Positions 3,813 to 16,196 of a stretch of 42,957 bases of DNA are shown piece after piece (within the stretch, counting starts at the first letter, position 1; each line of letters starts with the position of its first letter). The notes under the pieces were generated by a model. It had not been told where the DNA came from. It was given only the letters and a program-made list of their open reading frames with translations, and searched no databases. The position numbers were made by a program, and so were the translations under genes. This DNA is from Euzebya sp. (GTDB lineage: Bacteria; Actinomycetota; Nitriliruptoria; Euzebyales; Euzebyaceae), in contig NZ_CAXQBR010000050.1 of NCBI RefSeq assembly GCF_964222135.1, forward strand, positions 1 to 42,957. Reading direction: 5' to 3'.

Positions 3813-4454
3813 CTACTGGGAGGCGAGCCAGCGCCCGATGGTGGAGGGGTGGACGCCGAGTTCCTTGGCGATGCGCGTGTTCGTCCAACCGTCACGCCGG
3901 TAGGCCTGCGCCTGCGCACGCCGATCAGCACGTCGCAGGCTGGGTTTCGAGGCGGGCGTCGGGGCTTGGCTCGTGTGCCGGTGAGTTGCGCCGTCGGGGC
4001 CCGCGGCGGTGGTGCGTCGGGTGAGTTCGACGGTGAGGTGGGTGATGGCGAGTAGGACCAGCGGCGGTACCGAGGCGATCACCGCGGCGAGCAGCTCGGG
4101 AACGTCGCCTTCGGTGGCGACCATGGCGTGGGTGGCGTTGCCCGCGACGGAGATCGTGGCGCCGGCGACCAGCAGGGTCCAGGGGTACCAGGTGGCCCGC
4201 CTGCCGTGGGGGGCGAGGGCGACCACCGAGATCGTCGCGACGACGGTGATGCCGTCCACGATGAGCGGCCACACCCACGCCTGGCCAGCGGGGATGCCGG
4301 CGCGTCGGGCGAGATCGGCCAGGGCGGTGAAGGACAGCCAAAACGCCCCGAGCGCGATGGCCACCGTGCCCCCAACCGCGGAGCCGACGACCCACCGCGA
4401 CACCGACCCCGCCGCCTCACTGGTAGACGGGACTGGCGATCGCGTGGTGGTCAT
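3813..4454 (-). CDS. DUF2637 membrane protein with C-terminal helix-turn-helix (plasmid-transfer type)
   Basis: A 213-residue protein. The first about 145 residues hold four predicted membrane helices (starting near 22, 60, 90 and 120), with the DUF2637 signature LIVDGITVVATISVVAL. A basic linker follows, then a helix-turn-helix at about 170-212 (RRDGWTNTRIAKELGVHPSTI). DUF2637 proteins are common on actinobacterial conjugative plasmids and integrative elements beside replication and transfer genes. The start overlaps the stop of the primase-polymerase gene by 4 bases. The C-terminal HTH suggests DNA binding at the membrane, but the exact role is unknown. Confidence 0.78.
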   Translation of the reverse strand: MTTTRSPVPSTSEAAGSVSRWVVGSAVGGTVAIALGAFWLSFTALADLARRAGIPAGQAWVWPLIVDGITVVATISVVALAPHGRRATWYPWTLLVAGATISVAGNATHAMVATEGDVPELLAAVIASVPPLVLLAITHLTVELTRRTTAAGPDGATHRHTSQAPTPASKPSLRRADRRAQAQAYRRDGWTNTRIAKELGVHPSTIGRWLASQ

Positions 4455-5314
4455 CGGCTGAGGCTCCGATCGGGGCGCCCTTGGCGCTGGGTCCGTGGCG
4501 GTGGCAGCGGGTGGGCGGTGCGGTAGGCCGAGCGGATCGTGGCGGCCGCCTCGGCGGGGCCGAGGCCGGCCTGGGCGGCGGCGGTGCCGAGCTCGTCGTG
4601 GGCATCGAGGTGGGAGACGTCAGCCTCGGCGTACCGGCAGGCCGCCCAGAACAGGCTCGCATTGCGGGTCCCCTCCGGCCTCGTCGCCACCCAGCCGGCC
4701 AACCGCGACGACACCCCCGCGATCCTGCCCTGCGCTGACACCCTCCGCGGTGGCGGCCGGTCGGGGGTGAGGTGTCGACGAAGCGCTGCCGCATCGAGTG
4801 GCCGGCCCTCCTCCCCCACCGCGATGGGCCGGTAGGTGCCGGCGCCGGTGATCACCGATGGGGGGACGAGGACGTACCCGCCGACCCCACGGAAGTCCAC
4901 GTGCACGCTGGTCAGCGACCAGGAGGGCTGGGGCCGATCAGGCTCGGCTGGGTAGTAGCGGTGCTCCCCACCCGACGGCGTCGCGACCCGACAGACCCAC
5001 CCGGCCGTCATGCCGGCTTCCTCCGCACCGGTCATCGCGGCGAACCCCGACCCGGTGGGGCGGCGGTCGATGTCGACCACGTCCACGCCGCCTCCCCCGG
5101 TGGCCAGGCCGATGTTCCCATCCGGCCAGCGTGCCCACCAGGCCCGTAGCTGGGCGGGGTCGGTCGTGGCGCCCCGGAACCCGCGGGGCGTGAGGGGCCG
5201 CTTCGCACCCGGCGCGCACGGGAACACCGCATAGCCCGCTGCGGCGTACACCAGCGCCGCACCAAGCCGACCCTCCTCGTCGCTGGCCCGGGCCATGACC
5301 TGACCGATCTTCAT
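4451..5314 (-). CDS. Bifunctional DNA primase/polymerase (Prim-Pol, AEP superfamily)
   Basis: 287 residues from the ATG at 5314, which is preceded by GGAGGTGGCAGAAGG; the longer frame to 5455 adds a Gly/Arg-rich tail that looks non-coding. The three archaeo-eukaryotic primase motifs are visible: the metal-binding DID (D81, D83), the SxH-like SGGEH (H118), and the later hD motif in HVDFRG (D140). Such proteins start plasmid or integrative-element replication by making primers. There is no fused helicase domain, so a partner helicase is expected elsewhere. It forms an operon with the DUF2637 gene and diverges from the relaxase. Confidence 0.85.
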   Translation of the reverse strand: MKIGQVMARASDEEGRLGAALVYAAAGYAVFPCAPGAKRPLTPRGFRGATTDPAQLRAWWARWPDGNIGLATGGGGVDVVDIDRRPTGSGFAAMTGAEEAGMTAGWVCRVATPSGGEHRYYPAEPDRPQPSWSLTSVHVDFRGVGGYVLVPPSVITGAGTYRPIAVGEEGRPLDAAALRRHLTPDRPPPRRVSAQGRIAGVSSRLAGWVATRPEGTRNASLFWAACRYAEADVSHLDAHDELGTAAAQAGLGPAEAAATIRSAYRTAHPLPPPRTQRQGRPDRSLSR

Positions 5315-5499
5315 CCTTCTGCCACCTCCAGCTGGGTCGACCACTTGCGTCGTCACCAACCAGGTGCACCGCCCCTCCCAGCCACCCCCGCCGCGGCCTC
5401 GTCCCCCGTACCCCTGCGCGGCTCCTCGACGCCCGCACCCACCACTCCCGGACACACTTCTTGCAGATCGAGGAGGTCAGGCGGCCGCCGCACACCTGT

Positions 5500-5518
5500 G
5501 AGATGTGGAGCACATCTC
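5500..5518. repeat. Perfect 8-bp inverted repeat before the relaxase gene (candidate oriT or leader hairpin)
   Basis: GAGATGTG (5500-5507) and CACATCTC (5511-5518) are exact reverse complements around a 3-base loop. The repeat ends 12 bases before the GTG start of the MobF relaxase. MobF relaxases nick beside an inverted repeat, and oriT often lies next to the relaxase gene. The repeat could equally be an RNA hairpin controlling translation of the relaxase. Confidence 0.5.
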
Positions 5519-5530
5519 GGGGTGGTCTGG

Positions 5531-8500
5531 GTGACGGTGTCGATGCGGGTGATGTCCGCCGGCGCCGGCTACCGCTACCTGCTGAACTCCGTCGCCGTCG
5601 GCGACGCCGTCCGCGAGCCCGGACGCGGGCTGGCGGACTACTACACCGTTGAGGGCTGCCCGCCAGGCCGGTGGCTCGGTTCAGGACTGCCGGCCCTCGG
5701 CAGCGGGCACCTGCGGGCAGGGGACGTGGTTGAGGAGGAGCAGGTGGCGCGCCTGCTCGGCCAAGGCCGCGACCCGCTCAGCGGGGAGCCGTTGGGACGC
5801 GCCTACCCCCAGTACCGCACCCGGTCGGAGCGGATCGCCGACCGCGTCGCCACCCTCGACCCTGACCTGTCCGGGGAGGCACGGGCGGCCGCCGTCGAAC
5901 GGATCGAGCGGGAGGAAGGTGAGCGGCGGCAGCGGCGGGCGGTGGCCGGGTTCGACCTGACCTTCAGCGTCCCCAAGTCCGTCTCGGTCCTCTGGGCCCT
6001 CTCCGACCCCGACACCCGCACCACCATTCTGGAGGCGCATCATGCGGCGATCGGTGACGTCATCCAGCTGGTCGAGCGGGAGGTTGCCGCCACTCGCATG
6101 GGCGCATCCGGACCGGACGGCGCGGTCGCCCAAGTGCCCGTCACCGGCATCATCGCCGCGGCGTTCGACCACTACGACTCCCGCGCCGGCGATCCACAAG
6201 TTCATACGCATGTGGTGATCGCCAACAAGGCTCAGGCGGTCCTCGACGGCCGATGGCGCAGCCTGGACGGCCAACCGATCCACGCCGCCATGGTCGCCTT
6301 GTCCGAGCACTACAACGCCATCCTCGCCGACCGCCTCACCGACACCCTCGGCAGCGTGTGGCGTCAACGTGACCGCGGACCGGACCGCAATCTGGGATGG
6401 GAGATCGCCGGCGTCCCCGAGGAGCTACTCGACGCGTTCTCGACGCGTACGACGGGGATCGAGACGGCGGTGGTGGACCTGATCGATGACTACGTCGCCA
6501 CCCACGGCCACCAGCCATCCCCGCGGACGGTGATCCGTCTCCGCCAACAGGCCACCCTCGCAACGCGTCCCGACAAGCAGTTTGCGTCCCTGGCCGACCT
6601 CACCGAGCGGTGGCGTGCAACCGCTGATGCGGTCGGCATGCCCGCTACCCGGTGGTTGCAGGGTGTGCTGGCCGGTCGTGTGCAGCAGCGGTTGCGTGCA
6701 GACGATCTGTCGGCTGCAACGCTCAGCGCGATCGCGGCAACCGTGGTCGATGCAATCGGAGAACGCCGCTCGACCTGGCGACGCTGGAACCTGCACGCCG
6801 AAGCAACCCGCCAACTCATGGGCGTCCGCTTCCACAGCACCGCCGACCGCAACACCATCCTCACACAGGTCATCGACGCCGCCGAAGCGTCGTCGGTGCC
6901 GCTCACCCCACCCGACCTCGCCCCCGTCCCCGCCGAGCTGCAACGCACCGACGGCACCAGCGTGCTACGACCCCGCCACACCACCGTGTTCACCTCCGCC
7001 GAGCTGCTCGCCGCCGAAGACCGACTCATTGCGCTGTCCCGCACAACCCACGCCCCGCAGATCCCCGCGGATACGGTGATTCATCACGCCGACGGGCTCG
7101 GCGAGGACCAGGTCGCCGCCATCAGCAACGTGGCCACCTCTGGCCGCGTGGTGGATGTGCTCGTCGGCCCGGCGGGGGCGGGCAAGACCACCACCATGCG
7201 CGCCCTCCGTGCCGCGTGGGAGCACCTCTACGGCACCGGATCCGTCCTCGGACTCGCCCCGTCAGCCGCCGCCGCGGAGGTCCTCGGCACAGAACTCGAC
7301 ATCACCGCCGACACCACCGCCAAGTGGCTGCATGACCACCACGCCGGACGCGCCCAGTTTCGGGCCGGGCAGCTGGTCGTTGTCGATGAGGCTTCGCTCG
7401 CGGGCACCCACACCTTGCACCGGATCGCCACCGCGGCCGCCGACGCCGGCGCCAAGGTTCTCCTTGTGGGGGATTCCGCTCAGCTCGCCGCCGTCGATGC
7501 CGGCGGGGCGTTCGCCATGCTGGTCGGCGACCGCGACGACGTCGCCGAGCTCACCAGCGTCCGGCGTTTCCACCACGACTGGGAGAAGGATGCATCCCTG
7601 CGTCTCCGCAACGGCGACCCCGCCGTCCTCGACGACTACAGCCAGCACGGCCGGCTCCATGGCGGCGACACCGACACGATGCTGGACGCCGCCTACACCG
7701 CATGGCAGACCGACCTCACCGCAGGCAGGACCAGCCTGCTGATCGCCCCCACCCGCGACCAGGTCACCGCCCTCAACACCCGCGCCCAAACCGATCGTGC
7801 CGCCGCCGGCGCCGTCGACCTCACCACCAGCGCACCGTTGCGGGACGGCACCGCCGCCGGCATCGGCGACCTCATCGTCACGCGGCGGAACCGCCGGCAA
7901 CTCACGACGACGTCCGGCCGCTGGGTCCGCAACGGTGACCGGTGGACCGTGGACGCCGTCCACCCCGACGGGAGCCTGACCGTCCGAGCGCCGGGGGCGG
8001 GGACGGTGCAGCTGCCCGCCGGATACGTCGCCGACCACGTCGAGCTGGGCTACGCCGTCACCGCCCACCGCGCCCAAGGAGCCACCGTCGACACCGCCCA
8101 CGCCCTCATCACGCCCGGCATGACCCGCAACACCGTCTATGTGGCTCTAACCCGCGGTCGACAGGTCAACCACGCCTACACCTGCACCGACACCCCCGAT
8201 GCGGAGCTCCACCAGGTCGAGAACGAGCCGCTCTCGGCACGGGACGTACTCGTCGCCGCCATCAGCCGCTCCGGTGCCGAACAGTCCGCTCACGCCACCA
8301 CACGGACCGAGCAGGACCGCTTGGGCAGCGTCGCTCAGCTCGCCGCGGAGTACGAGACCATTGCCGCAGCCGCACAACGACCCCGCTGGACCACCCTGAT
8401 CCACACCTGCGGCCTCACCACCGAGCAGGCCGAGCAGGTCCTCACCTCCGACGCGTTCAGCGCGCTCACCGCCGCCCTACGGCGCGCCGACGCCCACCAC

Positions 8501-9046
8501 CTCACACCCGAAAGACTCATGCCCGGCCTCGTCGCCGACCGCGACCTCGACGACGCTGACGACATCGCTGCCGTCCTCCACCACCGCGTGACCGCCGCCA
8601 CGACGAGAGCGTCCAGGACCCGGCAGCGGCCCTCGCACATGGTCGCCGGACTCATCCCGAAAGCCGACGGGCCCATGTCCGACGCGACGCGCGTCGCCCT
8701 GGACGAGCGCGAACAACTCATCCTCCAGCGCGCGAAAGCCGTTCTCCAGGAGGCCGCCTCGAGCGGCGCGTCATGGCTCCGTCACCTCGGCGCGTTGCCG
8801 CCCTGGGCCGCGCAGCGAGCCCCATGGACCAGCGAGCTCATCACCATCGCCGCCTACCGCGACAGGTACGCCATCACAGCCGACACCCCGCTCGGGGCGA
8901 CACCAACGTCAGACGCACAACGCGCTGACGCCGCCACCGCCGCCGCGGCACTCGAACGTCACCGCCTCCGCTCGCCCTTCACCGAGCGCGAGGCGCTCCA
9001 CGGGCAGAGACGCAAGATGCAGCCACGCGGGCTCACCCGACCCTGA
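5531..9046 (+). CDS. MobF-family conjugative relaxase with TraI/RecD-like helicase domain
   Basis: 1171 residues from the GTG at 5531, giving the N-terminus MTVSMRVMSAGAGYRYLL that is usual for this family (the frame stays open back to a TTG at 5345). The N-terminal TrwC relaxase domain has the early Tyr region, LTFSVPKSVSVLWAL, and the three-histidine metal site in DPQVHTHVVI (about residue 223). A UvrD/RecD-like SF1 helicase domain follows, with Walker A GPAGAGKTTTM (about 546), Walker B VVDEAS, and a late motif around YAVTAHRAQGATVDTAH. It should nick oriT, stay covalently bound to the strand and unwind the plasmid for transfer. No coupling protein or type IV secretion genes are in the window. 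The call is firm; whether this is a plasmid or an ICE cannot be told here. Confidence 0.93.
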   Translation: MTVSMRVMSAGAGYRYLLNSVAVGDAVREPGRGLADYYTVEGCPPGRWLGSGLPALGSGHLRAGDVVEEEQVARLLGQGRDPLSGEPLGRAYPQYRTRSERIADRVATLDPDLSGEARAAAVERIEREEGERRQRRAVAGFDLTFSVPKSVSVLWALSDPDTRTTILEAHHAAIGDVIQLVEREVAATRMGASGPDGAVAQVPVTGIIAAAFDHYDSRAGDPQVHTHVVIANKAQAVLDGRWRSLDGQPIHAAMVALSEHYNAILADRLTDTLGSVWRQRDRGPDRNLGWEIAGVPEELLDAFSTRTTGIETAVVDLIDDYVATHGHQPSPRTVIRLRQQATLATRPDKQFASLADLTERWRATADAVGMPATRWLQGVLAGRVQQRLRADDLSAATLSAIAATVVDAIGERRSTWRRWNLHAEATRQLMGVRFHSTADRNTILTQVIDAAEASSVPLTPPDLAPVPAELQRTDGTSVLRPRHTTVFTSAELLAAEDRLIALSRTTHAPQIPADTVIHHADGLGEDQVAAISNVATSGRVVDVLVGPAGAGKTTTMRALRAAWEHLYGTGSVLGLAPSAAAAEVLGTELDITADTTAKWLHDHHAGRAQFRAGQLVVVDEASLAGTHTLHRIATAAADAGAKVLLVGDSAQLAAVDAGGAFAMLVGDRDDVAELTSVRRFHHDWEKDASLRLRNGDPAVLDDYSQHGRLHGGDTDTMLDAAYTAWQTDLTAGRTSLLIAPTRDQVTALNTRAQTDRAAAGAVDLTTSAPLRDGTAAGIGDLIVTRRNRRQLTTTSGRWVRNGDRWTVDAVHPDGSLTVRAPGAGTVQLPAGYVADHVELGYAVTAHRAQGATVDTAHALITPGMTRNTVYVALTRGRQVNHAYTCTDTPDAELHQVENEPLSARDVLVAAISRSGAEQSAHATTRTEQDRLGSVAQLAAEYETIAAAAQRPRWTTLIHTCGLTTEQAEQVLTSDAFSALTAALRRADAHHLTPERLMPGLVADRDLDDADDIAAVLHHRVTAATTRASRTRQRPSHMVAGLIPKADGPMSDATRVALDEREQLILQRAKAVLQEAASSGASWLRHLGALPPWAAQRAPWTSELITIAAYRDRYAITADTPLGATPTSDAQRADAATAAAALERHRLRSPFTEREALHGQRRKMQPRGLTRP

Positions 9047-10150: not shown

Positions 10151-10349
10151 TCCCGTCCACGGATCGGCGTCGGTGAACAGCTGCACGCAGGGCCAGCCCG
10201 CCCGTCCGCTCAGGCGTCGGGGTGGTGCACCGGGGTCGAGGATTGCCGGTCAGGTCCCAGCACCTGCCCACGTTCGCGCAGCTCTCGGGCCAGCCGGCGG
10301 ATGACGTGTGCGCCGATCGGGTCGGGCCGGGTAGGAGGCCTGCGGCAGC

Positions 10350-10762
10350 TGACAGGCCGTCCTGGGCACGGATGACCTCGACCTCGCACAGGCGCCACCG
10401 CTGGTGCACCACCGGGGTGTAGACCAGCCGCCCGGCGACGAGGGAGTGGGCCCCCCAACGGTTCACCAGCCACCGGTCGACCGCATCCAGACCCCTCCGC
10501 TCCCCGATGCGGACACCACATCGCTGGTCCCCGCGGCCCCGGGAACCGGCGTCGACACCGGTAGGCCACCGCATCGTCGCGTTTGGTGATGCGCATCCGC
10601 GACCAGGTGTAGGGCTGGCCGATCAGCCGCGGCAGGGCGATGCCGACCAGGTGGGGGATGTCAAGGGAGCAGAACCACAGCGCCGGCCCGCGTGGCCCGC
10701 GCACGTACGTGCGGACGTCAGTCTCGAGAAACGTGCCGAGCACCGGGGGCGTGGTTCTTGGT
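10350..10762 (-). pseudogene. DUF2071 (YqjF-like) remnant, 5'-truncated and frameshifted
   Basis: The minus strand reads FLETDVRTYVRGPRGPALWF, a DUF2071 core, followed by WSRMRITKRDDAVAYRCRRR. The characteristic C-terminal part (VDRWLVNRWG then VVHQRWRLCEVEVI) is in another frame, shifting near 10540. The first 60 or so residues of the family are missing. The remnant lies directly downstream of the methyltransferase on the same strand. DUF2071 has no established biochemical role. Ends are approximate. Confidence 0.65.
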
Positions 10763-10774
10763 GTAGACAGCGGT

Positions 10775-11386
10775 TCAGGCAGAGCCCCGTGGCATCCGCT
10801 CGGCGACGCCGAGGGCGTAGTCTCCCGCGAGCATCGTCCGGTGTCGATCACCGACGTGCAGGTCGTGGTCCTGGAGAACGCCGACGAAGTCGTCGGCGGT
10901 GAAGCGGTCGTGGTCGGGGTGGTCGAACAGCAGCCGGTAGGTCGGCCGGTCCAGCGCGTGCTTGGTGACCTCGCTGTAGTAGAAGCGGCCGCCTGGCCGC
11001 AGGACCCTGCGGATCTCTGCGACGGCGGCCCGCCAGTCGGGGACGTGGTGGACGATGGCGAAGTCGAACACCGCATCGACGCTGGCGTCGGCCACATCGA
11101 TGGACGCGGCGTCCCCGACGTGGACCTCCACCTCGGGTCGGTGGGCGTGGCGGCGGCGAGCGCGCGTGACCATGGCGTCGTCGAGGTCGATGCCGATGAC
11201 GCGGTCGGCACCGAACCGGTCAAGGATGAGCTCGATGCCCGCGCCTCGTCCGCAGCCGATCTCCAGTGCCGTGCCGCCGGCCAGCCGACCGCCGAGCCGC
11301 AGCAGCAACGGAGTCTCCACGGCGCGCTGCAGCCACCAGCGGGGGGCACTGTTGATGAGCACGGTCTCGGCCTTGTTCATCCGCAT
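10775..11386 (-). CDS. Class I SAM-dependent methyltransferase
   Basis: 203 residues with the SAM-binding glycine motif ALEIGCGRGAG (about 40-50), the acidic residue after strand 2 (VIGIDLDD), the motif II region VDAVFDFAIVHHVPDW and the post-motif RVLRPGGRFYYSE. This is the Methyltransf_11/UbiE-like fold, acting in the cytoplasm on an unknown small molecule. The start codon shares a base with the P450 stop (TGATG), so it is coupled to the CYP152 gene. That link suggests both act on the same lipid or fatty-acid pathway, but no substrate can be read from the sequence. Confidence 0.85.
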   Translation of the reverse strand: MRMNKAETVLINSAPRWWLQRAVETPLLLRLGGRLAGGTALEIGCGRGAGIELILDRFGADRVIGIDLDDAMVTRARRRHAHRPEVEVHVGDAASIDVADASVDAVFDFAIVHHVPDWRAAVAEIRRVLRPGGRFYYSEVTKHALDRPTYRLLFDHPDHDRFTADDFVGVLQDHDLHVGDRHRTMLAGDYALGVAERMPRGSA

Positions 11387-12642
11387 CAGCGCCGCACCGC
11401 CGGGCTTCGCACGTCACGGATGACAACGCCGCTGTGCGGACGCGCGGGCATGTGTGACAGGCTGACGTGGAGGTTCTGGTGGGGGACCGTGTACGTCATC
11501 TCGCGGGTAAGCACGGCGACGGCGGTCTGCATGAGCCGGATGGTGATCCACTCTCCGGCACAACGGTGACCGGTGTGATGGTCACCGCCGCCCTGCGGGA
11601 TGAGGGTGAAGGGGTTACCATCCCACGTGGCGAACCGTTCCGGGCGGAACCGGTCGGCCTGCTCCCACAGGTCGGGATGCCGGTTGGTGCCGTACAGGTC
11701 GAGTAGGACCCGGCGACCACGAGGGAACCGGGCGCCGTGCCAGTCGAAGTCGTGGCGGACCCGTGCGGCGGCGGCCGGAAGGAACGGGGAGGTGCGGCGG
11801 ACCTCGTGCACGAACCACTCCACCTCCTCGTCCGATCCGTCTGCGAACCGGTCGCGCCACTCGGGGTGCTCGTGCAGCGCCAGGGCGGCGAAGGCGATGA
11901 AGTGGGTGATCGCCACGGTCGGACGCAAGACGTTGATGACCTCCACCGCCGCGACCTGGGCGGGCAGCAGACGTCCTGAGGGGTCGCGGTGCGTGGCCAC
12001 GACCTGCAGTGCGCTGCCGTCCGGTGGTTGCAGCGTCCCCCGGCGGGTCTGCTCGACGAGCTCACCGATCCACGCGTCTGTGCGGCGACGGGCGCGGCGG
12101 GCGGACAGGTAGGGGACGTGCGGGAACCCGAGAGGGTGGAACAGCGCGACGAGGTCGTCGGTCCGCTGCGCCACCTCGTCATCAGCTAGGGATACGCCCG
12201 TCCATGCGCACACCGTCTCGCACAGCAGCCGTGCCACCTCGTCGTACAGCACGACCTCCTCACGCGCCGACCAGCGGCCGATCGCCGTTCGCCAGCGTGC
12301 CGCGAACCGGTCGGCCAAGTCGTCGATCGCCGCCGGTGTCATCAGCGACATCAGCATGTGCTTGCGGTGGTGGTGTGCCGCGTCGTCGAGACCCTGGACC
12401 CCGCCCTGTCCGAAGAGGGTCCTCAGGGCGATCGCCGGTGATGCACCGCGACGCTCGAACCGGTCGCTGTAGAACATCTCGGCCGCCGCCGCGCCGCGCA
12501 TGCAGATCACCGGCTGGAGGAGCAGCCGGGTCTGGAACACGTCCGAGCGGTAGTGGCGACAGCGGTTGGATATGAACGCGTACCCGTCGTGGAGGAACGC
12601 CAGCGTGCTGTCAGGTCCACGGTTATGTGGCAACTCGGGCAT
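11386..12642 (-). CDS. Cytochrome P450 of the CYP152 family (fatty-acid peroxygenase)
   Basis: 418 residues. The heme-binding loop PQGGGDHHTGHRCAGEW carries the cysteine ligand C361 and is the CYP152 signature. The usual acid-alcohol pair of the I helix is replaced by an Arg-Pro (R240-P241, VLRPTVAI), the feature that lets CYP152 enzymes use hydrogen peroxide and bind the fatty-acid carboxylate. The residue matching Gln85 of P450-BSbeta (His85 in the decarboxylase OleT) is Gln (Q83, GVQGLD), which favours alpha/beta-hydroxylation over alkene formation. A good AGGAG lies 8 bases before the ATG. It sits 16 bases after the lspA frame, in an unusual place at the end of a metal-resistance operon. 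The subfamily call is strong; product preference is inferred from one residue. Confidence 0.92.
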   Translation of the reverse strand: MPELPHNRGPDSTLAFLHDGYAFISNRCRHYRSDVFQTRLLLQPVICMRGAAAAEMFYSDRFERRGASPAIALRTLFGQGGVQGLDDAAHHHRKHMLMSLMTPAAIDDLADRFAARWRTAIGRWSAREEVVLYDEVARLLCETVCAWTGVSLADDEVAQRTDDLVALFHPLGFPHVPYLSARRARRRTDAWIGELVEQTRRGTLQPPDGSALQVVATHRDPSGRLLPAQVAAVEVINVLRPTVAITHFIAFAALALHEHPEWRDRFADGSDEEVEWFVHEVRRTSPFLPAAAARVRHDFDWHGARFPRGRRVLLDLYGTNRHPDLWEQADRFRPERFATWDGNPFTLIPQGGGDHHTGHRCAGEWITIRLMQTAVAVLTREMTYTVPHQNLHVSLSHMPARPHSGVVIRDVRSPAVRR

Positions 12643-12658
12643 CTGATTGTCTCCTGGC

Positions 12659-13149
12659 TCAGCGCTGCGGGTTGACGGAGTCGTCCGTCACCGTCCGCGG
12701 AGTGGCATATACGTCGGTCCGGTCGTCTGCGGCCGCGGTGAGCAGTAGCAGGGCGACGCCTGCGGTGATGAAGACGTCGGCGACGTTGAACACCGGGAAC
12801 CAGCCCAGGTCGAAGAGGTCCACGACGCCGCCGCCGCTCGCACGGTCGAGCAGGTTGGCCAGGCCACCGCCGACGATGAGCCTGGCTGGAAGGCGGCCGC
12901 CGAGGTGGCCAGGCCAGGCAGTGACGGCCAGGGCGAGGACCGCCATGCCGGTGAGGGAAAGGATGAGAACCCGTGGCTGTCCGCGCCCAGGCTGAACGCC
13001 ATCCCGGTGCTGGAGGCGACTCGCAGACGGAGGAGCCCGAGATCGACCGGTCCGCTGAGCCATCCCACGGCGGCCAGCTTGGTGGCGGCGTCGATGGCCA
13101 CCGCGGTGACCGCGACGGCGAGGAGCCCGCGGTGCTGCGACGTCTTCAC
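12659..13149 (-). pseudogene. lspA: Lipoprotein signal peptidase II with one frameshift
   Basis: The start ATG at 13149 overlaps the metal-ATPase stop by 4 bases. The first frame reads MKTSQHRGLLAVAVTAVAID and continues to TGMAFSLGADS. The rest (VLILSLTGMAVLALAV, GGGLANLLDRA, FNVADVFITAGVALLLL) is in another frame, so a single base change near 12965-12985 breaks the gene. Both catalytic aspartates (LLDR and FNVAD) lie after the break. LspA is a four-helix membrane aspartyl protease that cleaves lipoprotein signal peptides. Copies beside metal P-type ATPases are known from lead/cadmium resistance loci. A sequencing indel in a G/C run is possible. Confidence 0.82.
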
Positions 13150-15062
13150 GTTCGGGCCAACCGGGTGCCGTTGACGATCACGACCAGCTCGGACAGCTCG
13201 TGAGCGAGCACGGCCAGCGGCAACCCGATCAACCCGAGCAGCGCACCTGGGACCAGCACGCCGAGGATGACGAAGGACAGCACGAGGTTCTGGCGGACGA
13301 CGCGGCGGGTCCGCCGCCCGATCCGGATCGCGTCGGTGAGCTTGCCGAGGTCGTCGGCCATCAGGGCGACGTCGGCGGTCTCGATCGCGATGTCGCTGCC
13401 GGCGGTGCCCATCGCGATGCCCACCGATGCGGTGGCCAGCGGCGGGGCGTCGTTGATGCCGTCACCGACCATGGCGACGTGGCCGAAGCGACCGCCGAGC
13501 TGCTGGACGTACTCTGCCTTGTCGTCGGGGGAGAGGGCCGCTCCGACCTCGTCGATGCCGACCTGCTCAGCGATGAACCGGGCGGTGCGCGGGTTGTCAC
13601 CGGTAAGCATCACGACGTGCTCGATCCCCAGGCGGTGCAGGTCCTCGACGGTGCGGGCGGACTGCTGGCGCACCGTGTCCGCGATCGCGAGGACCCCGAG
13701 GACGCCGTGGTCGTCGGCCAGCACCACGACGGTCCGCCCCTGCGCTTCCAGATCCTCGATGTCGGCCCGTATAGCGCTGACGTCATGTCCCTCACCCTCT
13801 ATGAACGCAGGTGAGCCGATGCGATGGACCGTGCCGTCCAGCGTCGCCCGCGCGCCGCCACCGGTGACCGCCTCGAACGCCGTGGCCTCCGGGACCGCGA
13901 GTTGGTGGTCGTCGGCGGTGGCCAGGACCGCACGCGCCAGCGGGTGTTCGGAGCGCCGCTCCACCGCCGCAGCACGCACGAGGACGTCATCGCGGTTGTG
14001 CTCGCCGGTGGGTCGGACGTCGACGACCTCCGGTGCGCCGCGGGTGAGCGTGCCGGTCTTGTCCATCGCCACCGCGCGCAGCCGGCCCAGCTCTTCGAGG
14101 TAGATGCCGCCCTTGATCAGCACGCCCTTGCGGCTGGCGCTGCCGATCGCCGCGACGTAGGTGACGGGGATGGAGATCACCAGCGCGCACGGTGCGGCCG
14201 CGACCAGCACCGTGGCCGACCGCAGCACCCACACGCCCCAGTCGCCCGACACGATGCCACCGACGAGCGCCACGAGGGCACCGGCGGCCAGGACCGCCGG
14301 CGAGTAGATCCTGGCGAATCGCTGCATGAATTGTTCGCCGCGGCCCTTGCGTTCCTGCGCGTCGCTGACCAGCTCGACGACCTTCGCCAGCGTGTTGTCC
14401 GACGCGGTGGCGGTGGCCTGGACCACCAGTGCCCCCTGGGCGTTGGAGGTGCCCGCGAACACGCGGTCACCGGGCTGCTTCTCCACCGGTACCGACTCAC
14501 CGGTCACCGCTGACTCGTCGATCGCGGTCCGGCCCTGCTCGATCGCACCGTCGGTCGCCACGTTCTGCCCCGGGCGCACGACGAACCGGTCGCCGGCGGC
14601 GATCGCGTCGACGTCGACCTCCTCCTCGGTGCCGTCGTCGCGCAGACGCGTCACACGCCTCGGCGCGAGGTCCAGCAACTTGTTGATGGCCGCCCGCGTG
14701 CGGTCCTCGGTGAACTCCTCCAGCGCCTCGGAGATCGAGTACAGGAACGCAAGCGACGCCGCCTCGCCCCACTCGCCCAGCAGCCCCGCGACCACCGTGG
14801 CGACCGTCATCAGCAACTCGATGCCGATCTCGCGGTCCTCCCACAGCTCCTCCACCGCCTCGGCGGCGAAGAAGCGGGCGCCGACCACGGTTGCGACGAC
14901 GTAGACCCCGGTCACCAGGGGCATCGGCACCCCGGCCAACCCGGCGACGAAGCCCACCGCAAGCAGCACGCCAGCACTGGCCGACCACCGGACCGGACGG
15001 GAGTGCCACAGCCGCTCCACCGACGGCTGGTCCTGCCGCGTCACCTGCGCCGCGTCGGTCAC
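13146..15062 (-). CDS. Heavy-metal P1B-type ATPase, CtpG-like (Cd/Zn/Pb efflux)
   Basis: 638 residues from the GTG at 15062, which overlaps the repressor stop as GTGA; an upstream GTG at 15095 is possible but lies inside the repressor gene. Features in order: the first membrane helices, the actuator-domain TGES (about 187-190), the ion-path motif APC (AAAPCALVIS, Cys about 292) in place of the common CPC, the phosphorylated Asp in DKTGTLT (about D334), the hinge MVGDGINDAPPLA, and a last helix with HELSELVVIVNG. There is no N-terminal HMA metal-binding domain. APC plus HELSE, and the partner repressor, recall mycobacterial CmtR/CtpG. It should pump soft divalent metals out of the cell. The exact ion is inferred. 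Confidence 0.92.
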   Translation of the reverse strand: MTDAAQVTRQDQPSVERLWHSRPVRWSASAGVLLAVGFVAGLAGVPMPLVTGVYVVATVVGARFFAAEAVEELWEDREIGIELLMTVATVVAGLLGEWGEAASLAFLYSISEALEEFTEDRTRAAINKLLDLAPRRVTRLRDDGTEEEVDVDAIAAGDRFVVRPGQNVATDGAIEQGRTAIDESAVTGESVPVEKQPGDRVFAGTSNAQGALVVQATATASDNTLAKVVELVSDAQERKGRGEQFMQRFARIYSPAVLAAGALVALVGGIVSGDWGVWVLRSATVLVAAAPCALVISIPVTYVAAIGSASRKGVLIKGGIYLEELGRLRAVAMDKTGTLTRGAPEVVDVRPTGEHNRDDVLVRAAAVERRSEHPLARAVLATADDHQLAVPEATAFEAVTGGGARATLDGTVHRIGSPAFIEGEGHDVSAIRADIEDLEAQGRTVVVLADDHGVLGVLAIADTVRQQSARTVEDLHRLGIEHVVMLTGDNPRTARFIAEQVGIDEVGAALSPDDKAEYVQQLGGRFGHVAMVGDGINDAPPLATASVGIAMGTAGSDIAIETADVALMADDLGKLTDAIRIGRRTRRVVRQNLVLSFVILGVLVPGALLGLIGLPLAVLAHELSELVVIVNGTRLART

Positions 15063-15409
15063 CGCGACCCGTCCGGCCGGATGTAGTTGTCGCACAGGGC
15101 GATCTGCGAACCGGTCGCCGCCAGGAGCACCTCAGCGGCGAGTAGCAGCTCCACGACCTCCTCCTGGGCGATCCGGTAGTGCACGGCCCGCCCCTCGGGT
15201 CTGTCGACCACCAACGCGCACTCTTTCAAGCACGACAGGTGCGCCGACACGTTGGCCTGGGAGCACCCGAGCCGCTCCACGAGGTCCTTCACCCGCAGCT
15301 CCCCCTCGTCGAGCAGGGCCAGCAGGATCCCCAAGCGCGTCGGATCCGCGAACCCGCGGAACAGCTTCGCCGCCGTGGCCACGTCCACCGCCGACACCAC
15401 CTCTGCCAT
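15059..15409 (-). CDS. ArsR/SmtB-family metal-sensing repressor, CmtR-like
   Basis: 116 residues with a winged helix-turn-helix (FADPTRLGILLALLDEGEL, then recognition helix QANVSAHLSCLKECALV). Cys60 and Cys64 in the LSC-x3-C stretch and Cys106 (ALCDNY) match the Cd/Pb-binding cysteines of Mycobacterium CmtR (Cys57, Cys61, Cys102). A further Cys49 precedes the recognition helix. It should repress its own operon and release DNA on binding Cd(II) or Pb(II). It is the first gene of the run repressor, ATPase, lspA, P450 and methyltransferase, and a palindrome overlaps the presumed -35 upstream. Confidence 0.88.
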   Translation of the reverse strand: MAEVVSAVDVATAAKLFRGFADPTRLGILLALLDEGELRVKDLVERLGCSQANVSAHLSCLKECALVVDRPEGRAVHYRIAQEEVVELLLAAEVLLAATGSQIALCDNYIRPDGSR

Positions 15410-15447
15410 CCCTTACCTCCCACGCGGTTTCGCCCCTCACCATCTGG

Positions 15448-15475
15448 AGCATAGTCTACAGCGATGTCATCGCAA
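15448..15475 (-). promoter_or_regulatory. Likely promoter and operator of the cmtR-like operon
   Basis: On the minus strand TTGCGA (15470-15475), a 16-base spacer and TATGCT (15448-15453) form a plausible -35/-10 pair about 40 bases before the repressor gene. The perfect 13-base palindrome GCGATGTCATCGC at 15461-15473 overlaps the -35 and is a good candidate operator. It also lies upstream of the divergent CDF-like gene and may control both. Confidence 0.55.
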
Positions 15476-15545
15476 ATCAGTGATGAGACGACCACCTACC
15501 AGCGCAACCACCCGGCGATGGACACGTTGCCTTGGAGGCTCACCC

Positions 15546-16196
15546 GTGCCTGACGAGCACGCATCGACATCCGGACGGGGTGTGACATCACGTGACGGCC
15601 TGCTCCGGCGCGGGGAGCGGTTGGAGACCTTCAGCGTCACCTGGGACGTCGTGGAAGGCATCGTCGCGACCATCGCCGGGCTCGCCTCTGGCAGCACGAC
15701 GCTGCTGGGCTACGGCTTCGAAAGTGTGATCGAGGTCACCGCAGCGGGGACGCTGCTGTGGCGGCTGCGGCGGGAACGCCGCGATGAGGACGCGTCGGAA
15801 CGCGTGGAGCAGCGGGCGCTGCGCGTCGTGGGCGCGTCCTTCTTCGTCCTGGCCGCCTACGTCAGCTACGAGGCGATCTCCAAGCTCGTCCAAGGAGTGG
15901 CGCCGGAGTTCAGCATCCTCGGCATGGGCATGGCGGCGGCCACCGTCGTGGTGATGCCGCCGCTGGCCCTCGCCAAGCGGCGCACCGGCAAGGAACTGGG
16001 CAGCGACGCGCTCGTCGCCGACTCACGCGAGACCATCGCTTCGACGTACCTGGCGGTCACGGTGCTGGCCGGCCTCGGGCTGTACCAGCTCTTCGACTGG
16101 TCGTGGTCGGACGCCGTCGCCGCGCTGGCCATGGTCCCCTACCTCCTGTGGTCTGGGATCGACGCGTGGCGCGACGCGTCCGACGACGGTGGCTGA
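15546..16196 (+). CDS. CDF-like cation transporter (divergent from the cmtR operon)
   Basis: 216 residues from the GTG at 15546, preceded by GGAGG at a 7-base distance. About five to six membrane helices are predicted. The pattern TTLLGYGFESVIEVTAAGTLLWRLRRE followed by SDALVADSRETIASTYLAV and SWSDAVAAL matches a compact CDF-like group in which acidic residues (E in GFESVIE, D in ADSRE, D in SWSDA) replace the classical HxxxD. There is no C-terminal cytoplasmic domain. It should move divalent metal across the membrane, and its position opposite the CmtR-like repressor suggests shared metal control. The ion is unknown. Confidence 0.75.
   Translation: MPDEHASTSGRGVTSRDGLLRRGERLETFSVTWDVVEGIVATIAGLASGSTTLLGYGFESVIEVTAAGTLLWRLRRERRDEDASERVEQRALRVVGASFFVLAAYVSYEAISKLVQGVAPEFSILGMGMAAATVVVMPPLALAKRRTGKELGSDALVADSRETIASTYLAVTVLAGLGLYQLFDWSWSDAVAALAMVPYLLWSGIDAWRDASDDGG

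Follow-up and report, generated by a model that had tools for sequence, protein, structure and literature searches.

A CYP152 fatty-acid peroxygenase gene in a predicted metal-responsive operon of Euzebya sp., and the recurrence of CYP152 beside metal exporters and lspA on plasmids

The window, i.e., the whole stretch of DNA that was analysed (42,957 nucleotides from Euzebya sp.), carries on its minus strand a run of five genes in the order CmtR-like repressor, P1B ATPase, lspA, CYP152, methyltransferase. The features of this region are:

15582-16196, plus strand: short CDF cation-efflux protein, 204 aa, divergent from arsR (PF01545, 63 bits)
15460-15473, minus strand: candidate operator GCGATGACATCGCT, a 14-mer made of a 13-base near-palindrome plus T
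15448-15475, minus strand: promoter guess TTGCGA, 16 bases, TATGCT, read by eye and overlapped by the candidate operator
15409-15059, minus strand: ArsR/SmtB-family CmtR-like metalloregulator (arsR/cmtR-like), 116 aa (HTH_5 and NF033788 matches; best PDB match CmtR 2jsc)
15095-13146, minus strand: P1B-type heavy-metal ATPase, 649 aa (TIGR01525 over cut-off; best PDB match 7qbz)
13149-12659, minus strand: lspA (signal peptidase II), frame split (PF01252 on the C-half; intact orthologue in the sister species)
12642-11386, minus strand: CYP152 fatty-acid peroxygenase P450, 418 aa (NF053744, 538 bits; PDB 6fyj/3awq/1izo)
11386-10775, minus strand: class I SAM-dependent methyltransferase, 203 aa (Methyltransf_11, 89.6 bits; orthologue of 82% identity in the sister species)

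The initial annotation had described these five genes as following one another with overlaps or tiny gaps, and coordinates and strand agree with it. The repressor and ATPase genes overlap by 37 bases, the ATPase end and lspA start by 4 bases and the P450 stop and methyltransferase start by 1 base. The sole intergenic gap of the run, 16 bases, separates the lspA stop from the P450 gene, which has a ribosome site of its own (AGGAGA, rated good). The divergent CDF gene encodes a protein 38% and 35% identical to CDF proteins encoded next to CYP152 at two other loci (L039 and L076, respectively); in the sister species (locus L053, 5057-5284) it is fragmented. Farther out, positions 4451-9046 and 20024-41348 hold genes for a TrwC relaxase, primase-polymerase, cytochrome c maturation (CcmB, CcmC, CcmF, CcdA), CopCD, DUF305 and DUF3105 proteins. 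They form an island of metal and cytochrome-c genes, carried by a probable mobile element. Its gene content resembles that of alphaproteobacterial metal plasmids.

The regulator had been annotated as CmtR-type, and its best solved relative is indeed M. tuberculosis CmtR (Rv1994c, 2jsc). Both are ArsR/SmtB regulators with the HLSCLxxC motif and a C-terminal Cys, and in both cases the repressor gene overlaps a metal ATPase gene (CtpG in M. tuberculosis). The complete Cys57/Cys61/Cys102-type ligand set of CmtR is present in the window regulator as Cys60, Cys64 and Cys106, which we take to correspond to the Cd/Pb ligands; the first two align directly with those of CmtR, and all three are invariant across ten regulators of CYP152-linked clusters. 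We call the protein CmtR-like because its score against the CmtR Cd/Pb sensor model (NF047906, 67.9 bits) falls under the curated equivalog cut-off of 150 bits, which rules out CmtR equivalog status. To our knowledge, no lspA, CYP152 or methyltransferase gene has been described at CmtR-CtpG loci.

The metal ATPase likewise belongs to the P1B family (TIGR01525, 592.9 bits vs. a cut-off of 346), and the earlier ctpG label proved loose, as APC replaces CPC/SPC in the metal-site helix. The SPC motif of the P1B-4 group is thus missing from the window protein. APC is also found in the sister species and in a planctomycete (L076), while the Arthrobacter protein (L084) has SPC. The ATPases at 13146-15095 of the window, 1740-3860 of L076 and 6712-8664 of L084 all have APC or SPC, not CPC, and no N-terminal CxxC.

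The lspA gene lies where it had been annotated, but not as one intact reading frame. A one-base deletion near 12979/12980 puts the N-half, which begins at 13149, and the C-half, which carries the catalytic Asp motifs and ends at 12659, into different frames. An intact LspA/PbrC-type peptidase, with its catalytic Asp pair in a single ORF, is therefore ruled out for the window as sequenced. The gene is a single intact ORF in the sister species, and a second, intact lspA is located elsewhere in the genome of the window (G000:C14). Frameshift aside, lspA is under relaxed constraint, with dN/dS of 0.4-0.55 compared to about 0.14-0.23 for the repressor, ATPase, P450 and methyltransferase genes (window vs. 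sister operon). The split could be either a sequencing error or a young pseudogene.

Just upstream of arsR, GCGATGACATCGCT occurs once in the genome of the window and once in that of the sister species, the two genomes that bear the operon, and a search of the whole genomes of two congeners without the operon (G001 and G002) did not find it. As read by eye, it covers the stretch between the TTGCGA box (CTGCGA in the sister species) and the −10 element TATGCT (kept as TATGAT). This promoter guess was not called by a simple, strict promoter scan. The initial annotation had named a separate promoter before the P450 as evidence against its reading. The same scan, which covered 10200-15800, found no promoter-like and no terminator-like site, including no intrinsic terminator 3' of the methyltransferase gene; because the likely operon promoter escaped it as well, the absence of an internal promoter-like site is weak evidence. 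An internal promoter inside lspA could place the P450 and methyltransferase genes outside the control of the metal repressor, in which case the broken lspA would matter less, and in Arthrobacter the P450 gene lies upstream of the repressor gene. We nevertheless regard such an internal promoter as very unlikely, given the outcome of the scan, the gap of only 16 bases after lspA and the overlaps at the other junctions.

The window P450 matches the solved CYP152 structures (6fyj/3awq/1izo) from end to end, with E below 1e-120. Aligned with them are the three residues by which we recognised the family: the active-site Arg for the substrate carboxylate (Arg240), the distal Gln/His residue (Gln83) and the heme Cys (Cys361). 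With about 48% identity to the SP-alpha-like protein of Sphingomonas naphthae, it also qualifies for the CYP152 name, for which convention asks at least 40% to characterised members. The CypC equivalog model (NF053744, Bacillus fatty-acid beta-hydroxylase) gave 538.5 bits, under its curated cut-off of 600, and CypC equivalog status is ruled out. Since the distal residue is Gln83 and not His, the pattern favours a hydroxylase, and an OleT-type alkene-forming decarboxylase is disfavoured. H2O2-driven fatty-acid hydroxylation is established for SP-alpha and BS-beta, SP-alpha being an alpha-hydroxylase in vitro (PMC5818669). Peroxide-driven fatty-acid hydroxylation by the window P450 is well supported by inference from these features; by analogy with SP-alpha, it would act at the alpha carbon. 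The methyltransferase is only weakly similar (27-41%) to methyltransferases elsewhere, which does not prove orthology.

A scan of genome contigs for related loci gave three relatives only; the survey covered plasmids and genomes of the phylum. In the sister species, a congener (G003, locus L053), all five operon genes occur in the same order, with protein identities of 88% (repressor), 88% (ATPase), 68% (lspA), 83% (P450) and 82% (methyltransferase). Judged by the dN/dS values above, the P450 and methyltransferase genes are kept under purifying selection. CYP152 is absent from the two other congeners checked (G001 and G002), one of which has an ATPase of 78% identity with no lspA or P450 gene beside it. 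A more distant member of the phylum (G399) carries the regulator, the ATPase (63%) and lspA with no P450. Because this core exists there without the P450, we consider repressor, ATPase and lspA to be the core of the operon and the P450 and methyltransferase genes an add-on.

CYP152-like matches were found in 132 plasmid records, from which 26 loci, picked for variety and not randomly, were read. A P1B ATPase or CDF gene counted as linked within 5 kb, as did lspA. An exporter was present at 19/26 loci (none at the other seven), lspA at 13/26 and both at 12/26. Four of the same plasmids supplied 604 overlapping control stretches, each 11.25 kb long, which contained an exporter in 28%, lspA in 0% and both in 0% of cases. 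Once pairs with identities of about 80% or higher had been merged, the counts were 13/20 for the exporter (binomial P = 6e-4 against 0.28) and 9/20 for lspA (P = 1.5e-13 against an assumed rate of 1%); these P-values are a guide only, because the loci were not chosen randomly and overlapping control stretches are not independent. At nine plasmid loci, as in the window and the sister species, lspA lies directly 5' of CYP152 on the same strand. The linked loci belong to Alphaproteobacteria, Bacillota (Peribacillus, Cytobacillus), a planctomycete and Arthrobacter FB24. None of 15 other actinobacterial CYP152 loci has an exporter nearby, so the linkage does not hold for actinobacterial CYP152 in general. 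Conserved linkage in other genomes, the test set by the initial annotation, was thus found on plasmids of several phyla.

In a tree of 43 proteins, 7 changes suffice to account for the exporter label, compared to a mean of 14 for shuffled labels. Exporter-linked proteins fall into several separate clades, with differing partners and gene orders, and therefore the data suggest that the linkage was assembled repeatedly. An ancestral linkage followed by losses is a possible alternative. Mobile metal islands gather genes, and CYP152 could also be cargo that has no functional tie to metals. In favour of such hitchhiking, the plasmids of many linked loci also carry transposases and further cargo, and the window itself holds the TrwC relaxase gene; the lack of an exporter near seven of the 26 plasmid loci and all 15 other actinobacterial ones speaks against the metal reading. 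Hitchhiking is difficult to reconcile with the recurrent same-strand pairs of lspA and P450 genes that overlap or nearly do so, the several clades with differing exporter partners, the purifying selection, and the control stretches of the same plasmids, with their lower exporter rate and complete lack of lspA. We therefore consider hitchhiking improbable.

LspA-type peptidases beside metal ATPases are already known: PbrC is one, encoded with PbrA in the pbr lead-resistance operon, whose regulator is the MerR-family PbrR. Like the window, this operon and the Mesorhizobium cadA-lspA cluster combine a metal ATPase with an LspA-type peptidase, and both are metal-induced. The Mesorhizobium cluster is induced by Zn/Cd, its lspA more than 3-fold by Zn, and no P450 is mentioned (PMC3668242). 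Closer to the window are Marinibacterium pLA6_005 (cmtR-czcD-lspA-cypC) and Arthrobacter FB24 plasmid 2, which share with it a CmtR-like regulator, an exporter, lspA and CYP152. They differ from it in that a CDF protein replaces the P1B ATPase or the gene order is another, and such a methyltransferase gene does not directly follow the P450.

CYP152B1 (P450 SP-alpha of Sphingomonas paucimobilis) offers a further comparison. It belongs to the same family as the window P450 and has the same Gln/Arg/Cys motifs, at about 48% identity. The crystallised protein (3awq) shares 99.8% identity with a P450 encoded on a S. naphthae plasmid (L079), and this near-identical gene sits in a metal island, as does the window P450. 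Its neighbours are cueR/Cu-ATPase and MerR/MerT genes instead of a CmtR-ATPase-lspA operon; on both Sphingomonas plasmids (L079, NZ_CP117412.1, 5001-6248, and L078) the gene lies between the Cu ATPase/cueR pair and MerR/MerT. Searches of the full texts of an open-access library found no mention of the place of the SP-alpha gene among copper and mercury genes. More generally, these searches found no report of CYP152 or another peroxygenase with metal operons. The combination had initially been described as not known from operons; no report of it was found in these texts, but it is widespread and not peculiar to this genome. What appears new is the link between CYP152 and metal operons, not LspA beside metal ATPases.

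The sequences themselves show the gene identities, the layout and conservation of the operon, the cysteines of the regulator, the candidate operator and the recurrence of the linkage, and co-regulation of the P450 with a metal exporter is well supported by inference from them. The metal induction of the operon and its physiological purpose we infer. We favour, with some confidence, a metal-derepressed operon in which the peroxygenase acts on fatty acids with the H2O2 that metals induce. The CmtR-like repressor would occupy the GCGATGACATCGC site, which overlies the promoter of its own gene, until the three cysteines bind a thiophilic divalent metal, most likely Cd, Pb or Zn, and the repressor is released. 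A single transcript would then give the metal-exporting ATPase, LspA (whose frame is broken or misread here), CYP152 and the methyltransferase. The P450 would work without a redox partner, H2O2 raised under metal stress driving the hydroxylation of free fatty acids, chiefly on the alpha carbon like SP-alpha. Most likely, it would serve both to consume peroxide along with fatty acids that damaged membrane releases and to provide the envelope with 2-hydroxy fatty acids, and the P450 product may be a substrate of the methyltransferase. The gain for a metal-stressed cell could be the use of metal-made peroxide, the disposal of freed fatty acids, or 2-hydroxy acids for the envelope.

Genes for peroxiredoxin, MAPEG, thioredoxin-like and CcdA proteins adjoin CYP152 in several linked loci; those for peroxiredoxin, MAPEG and CcdA point towards a redox theme. 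The P450 could accordingly be a sink for peroxide and lipid damage that removes H2O2 and free fatty acids, its 2-hydroxy product being waste and not a membrane component. These neighbours would fit such a role, as would the stoichiometric consumption of H2O2 by the CYP152 family. P450 peroxygenases are, however, poor peroxide scavengers compared to catalase, and the linked methyltransferase would be needless. We consider a mere sink rather unlikely, if less so than hitchhiking, and prefer the metal-derepressed operon with a use for the hydroxylated product.

Beyond this locus, we propose tentatively, and with less conviction than the operon model itself, a cross-phylum, repeatedly assembled metal-stress module in which CmtR-type metal sensors control CYP152. 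The SP-alpha branch would then natively serve metal resistance through peroxide-driven alpha-hydroxylation of fatty acids. As peroxide-driven biocatalysts, CYP152 enzymes have attracted intensive study, and the open-access papers that were read do not discuss their gene neighbourhoods. The metal sensor, exporter and lspA shared with CYP152 across phyla point to a specific, testable role, in which metal stress would be the signal, peroxide made by metals the co-substrate and fatty acids the target. The recurring metal partnership suggests a stress role for the CYP152 family, and if this holds true, lipid oxidation would join the known metal-resistance repertoire of plasmids.

Other plasmid loci showed different surroundings. 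A divergent CYP152 clade on Lactiplantibacillus and Staphylococcus plasmids (L087, L088) is flanked by transposases and located away from metal exporters; on the Staphylococcus plasmid, a catalase gene lies upstream. Additionally, partial or two-piece CYP152 matches were observed on Enterococcus plasmids (H77-H79, H89, H90, H98), apparently decaying copies.
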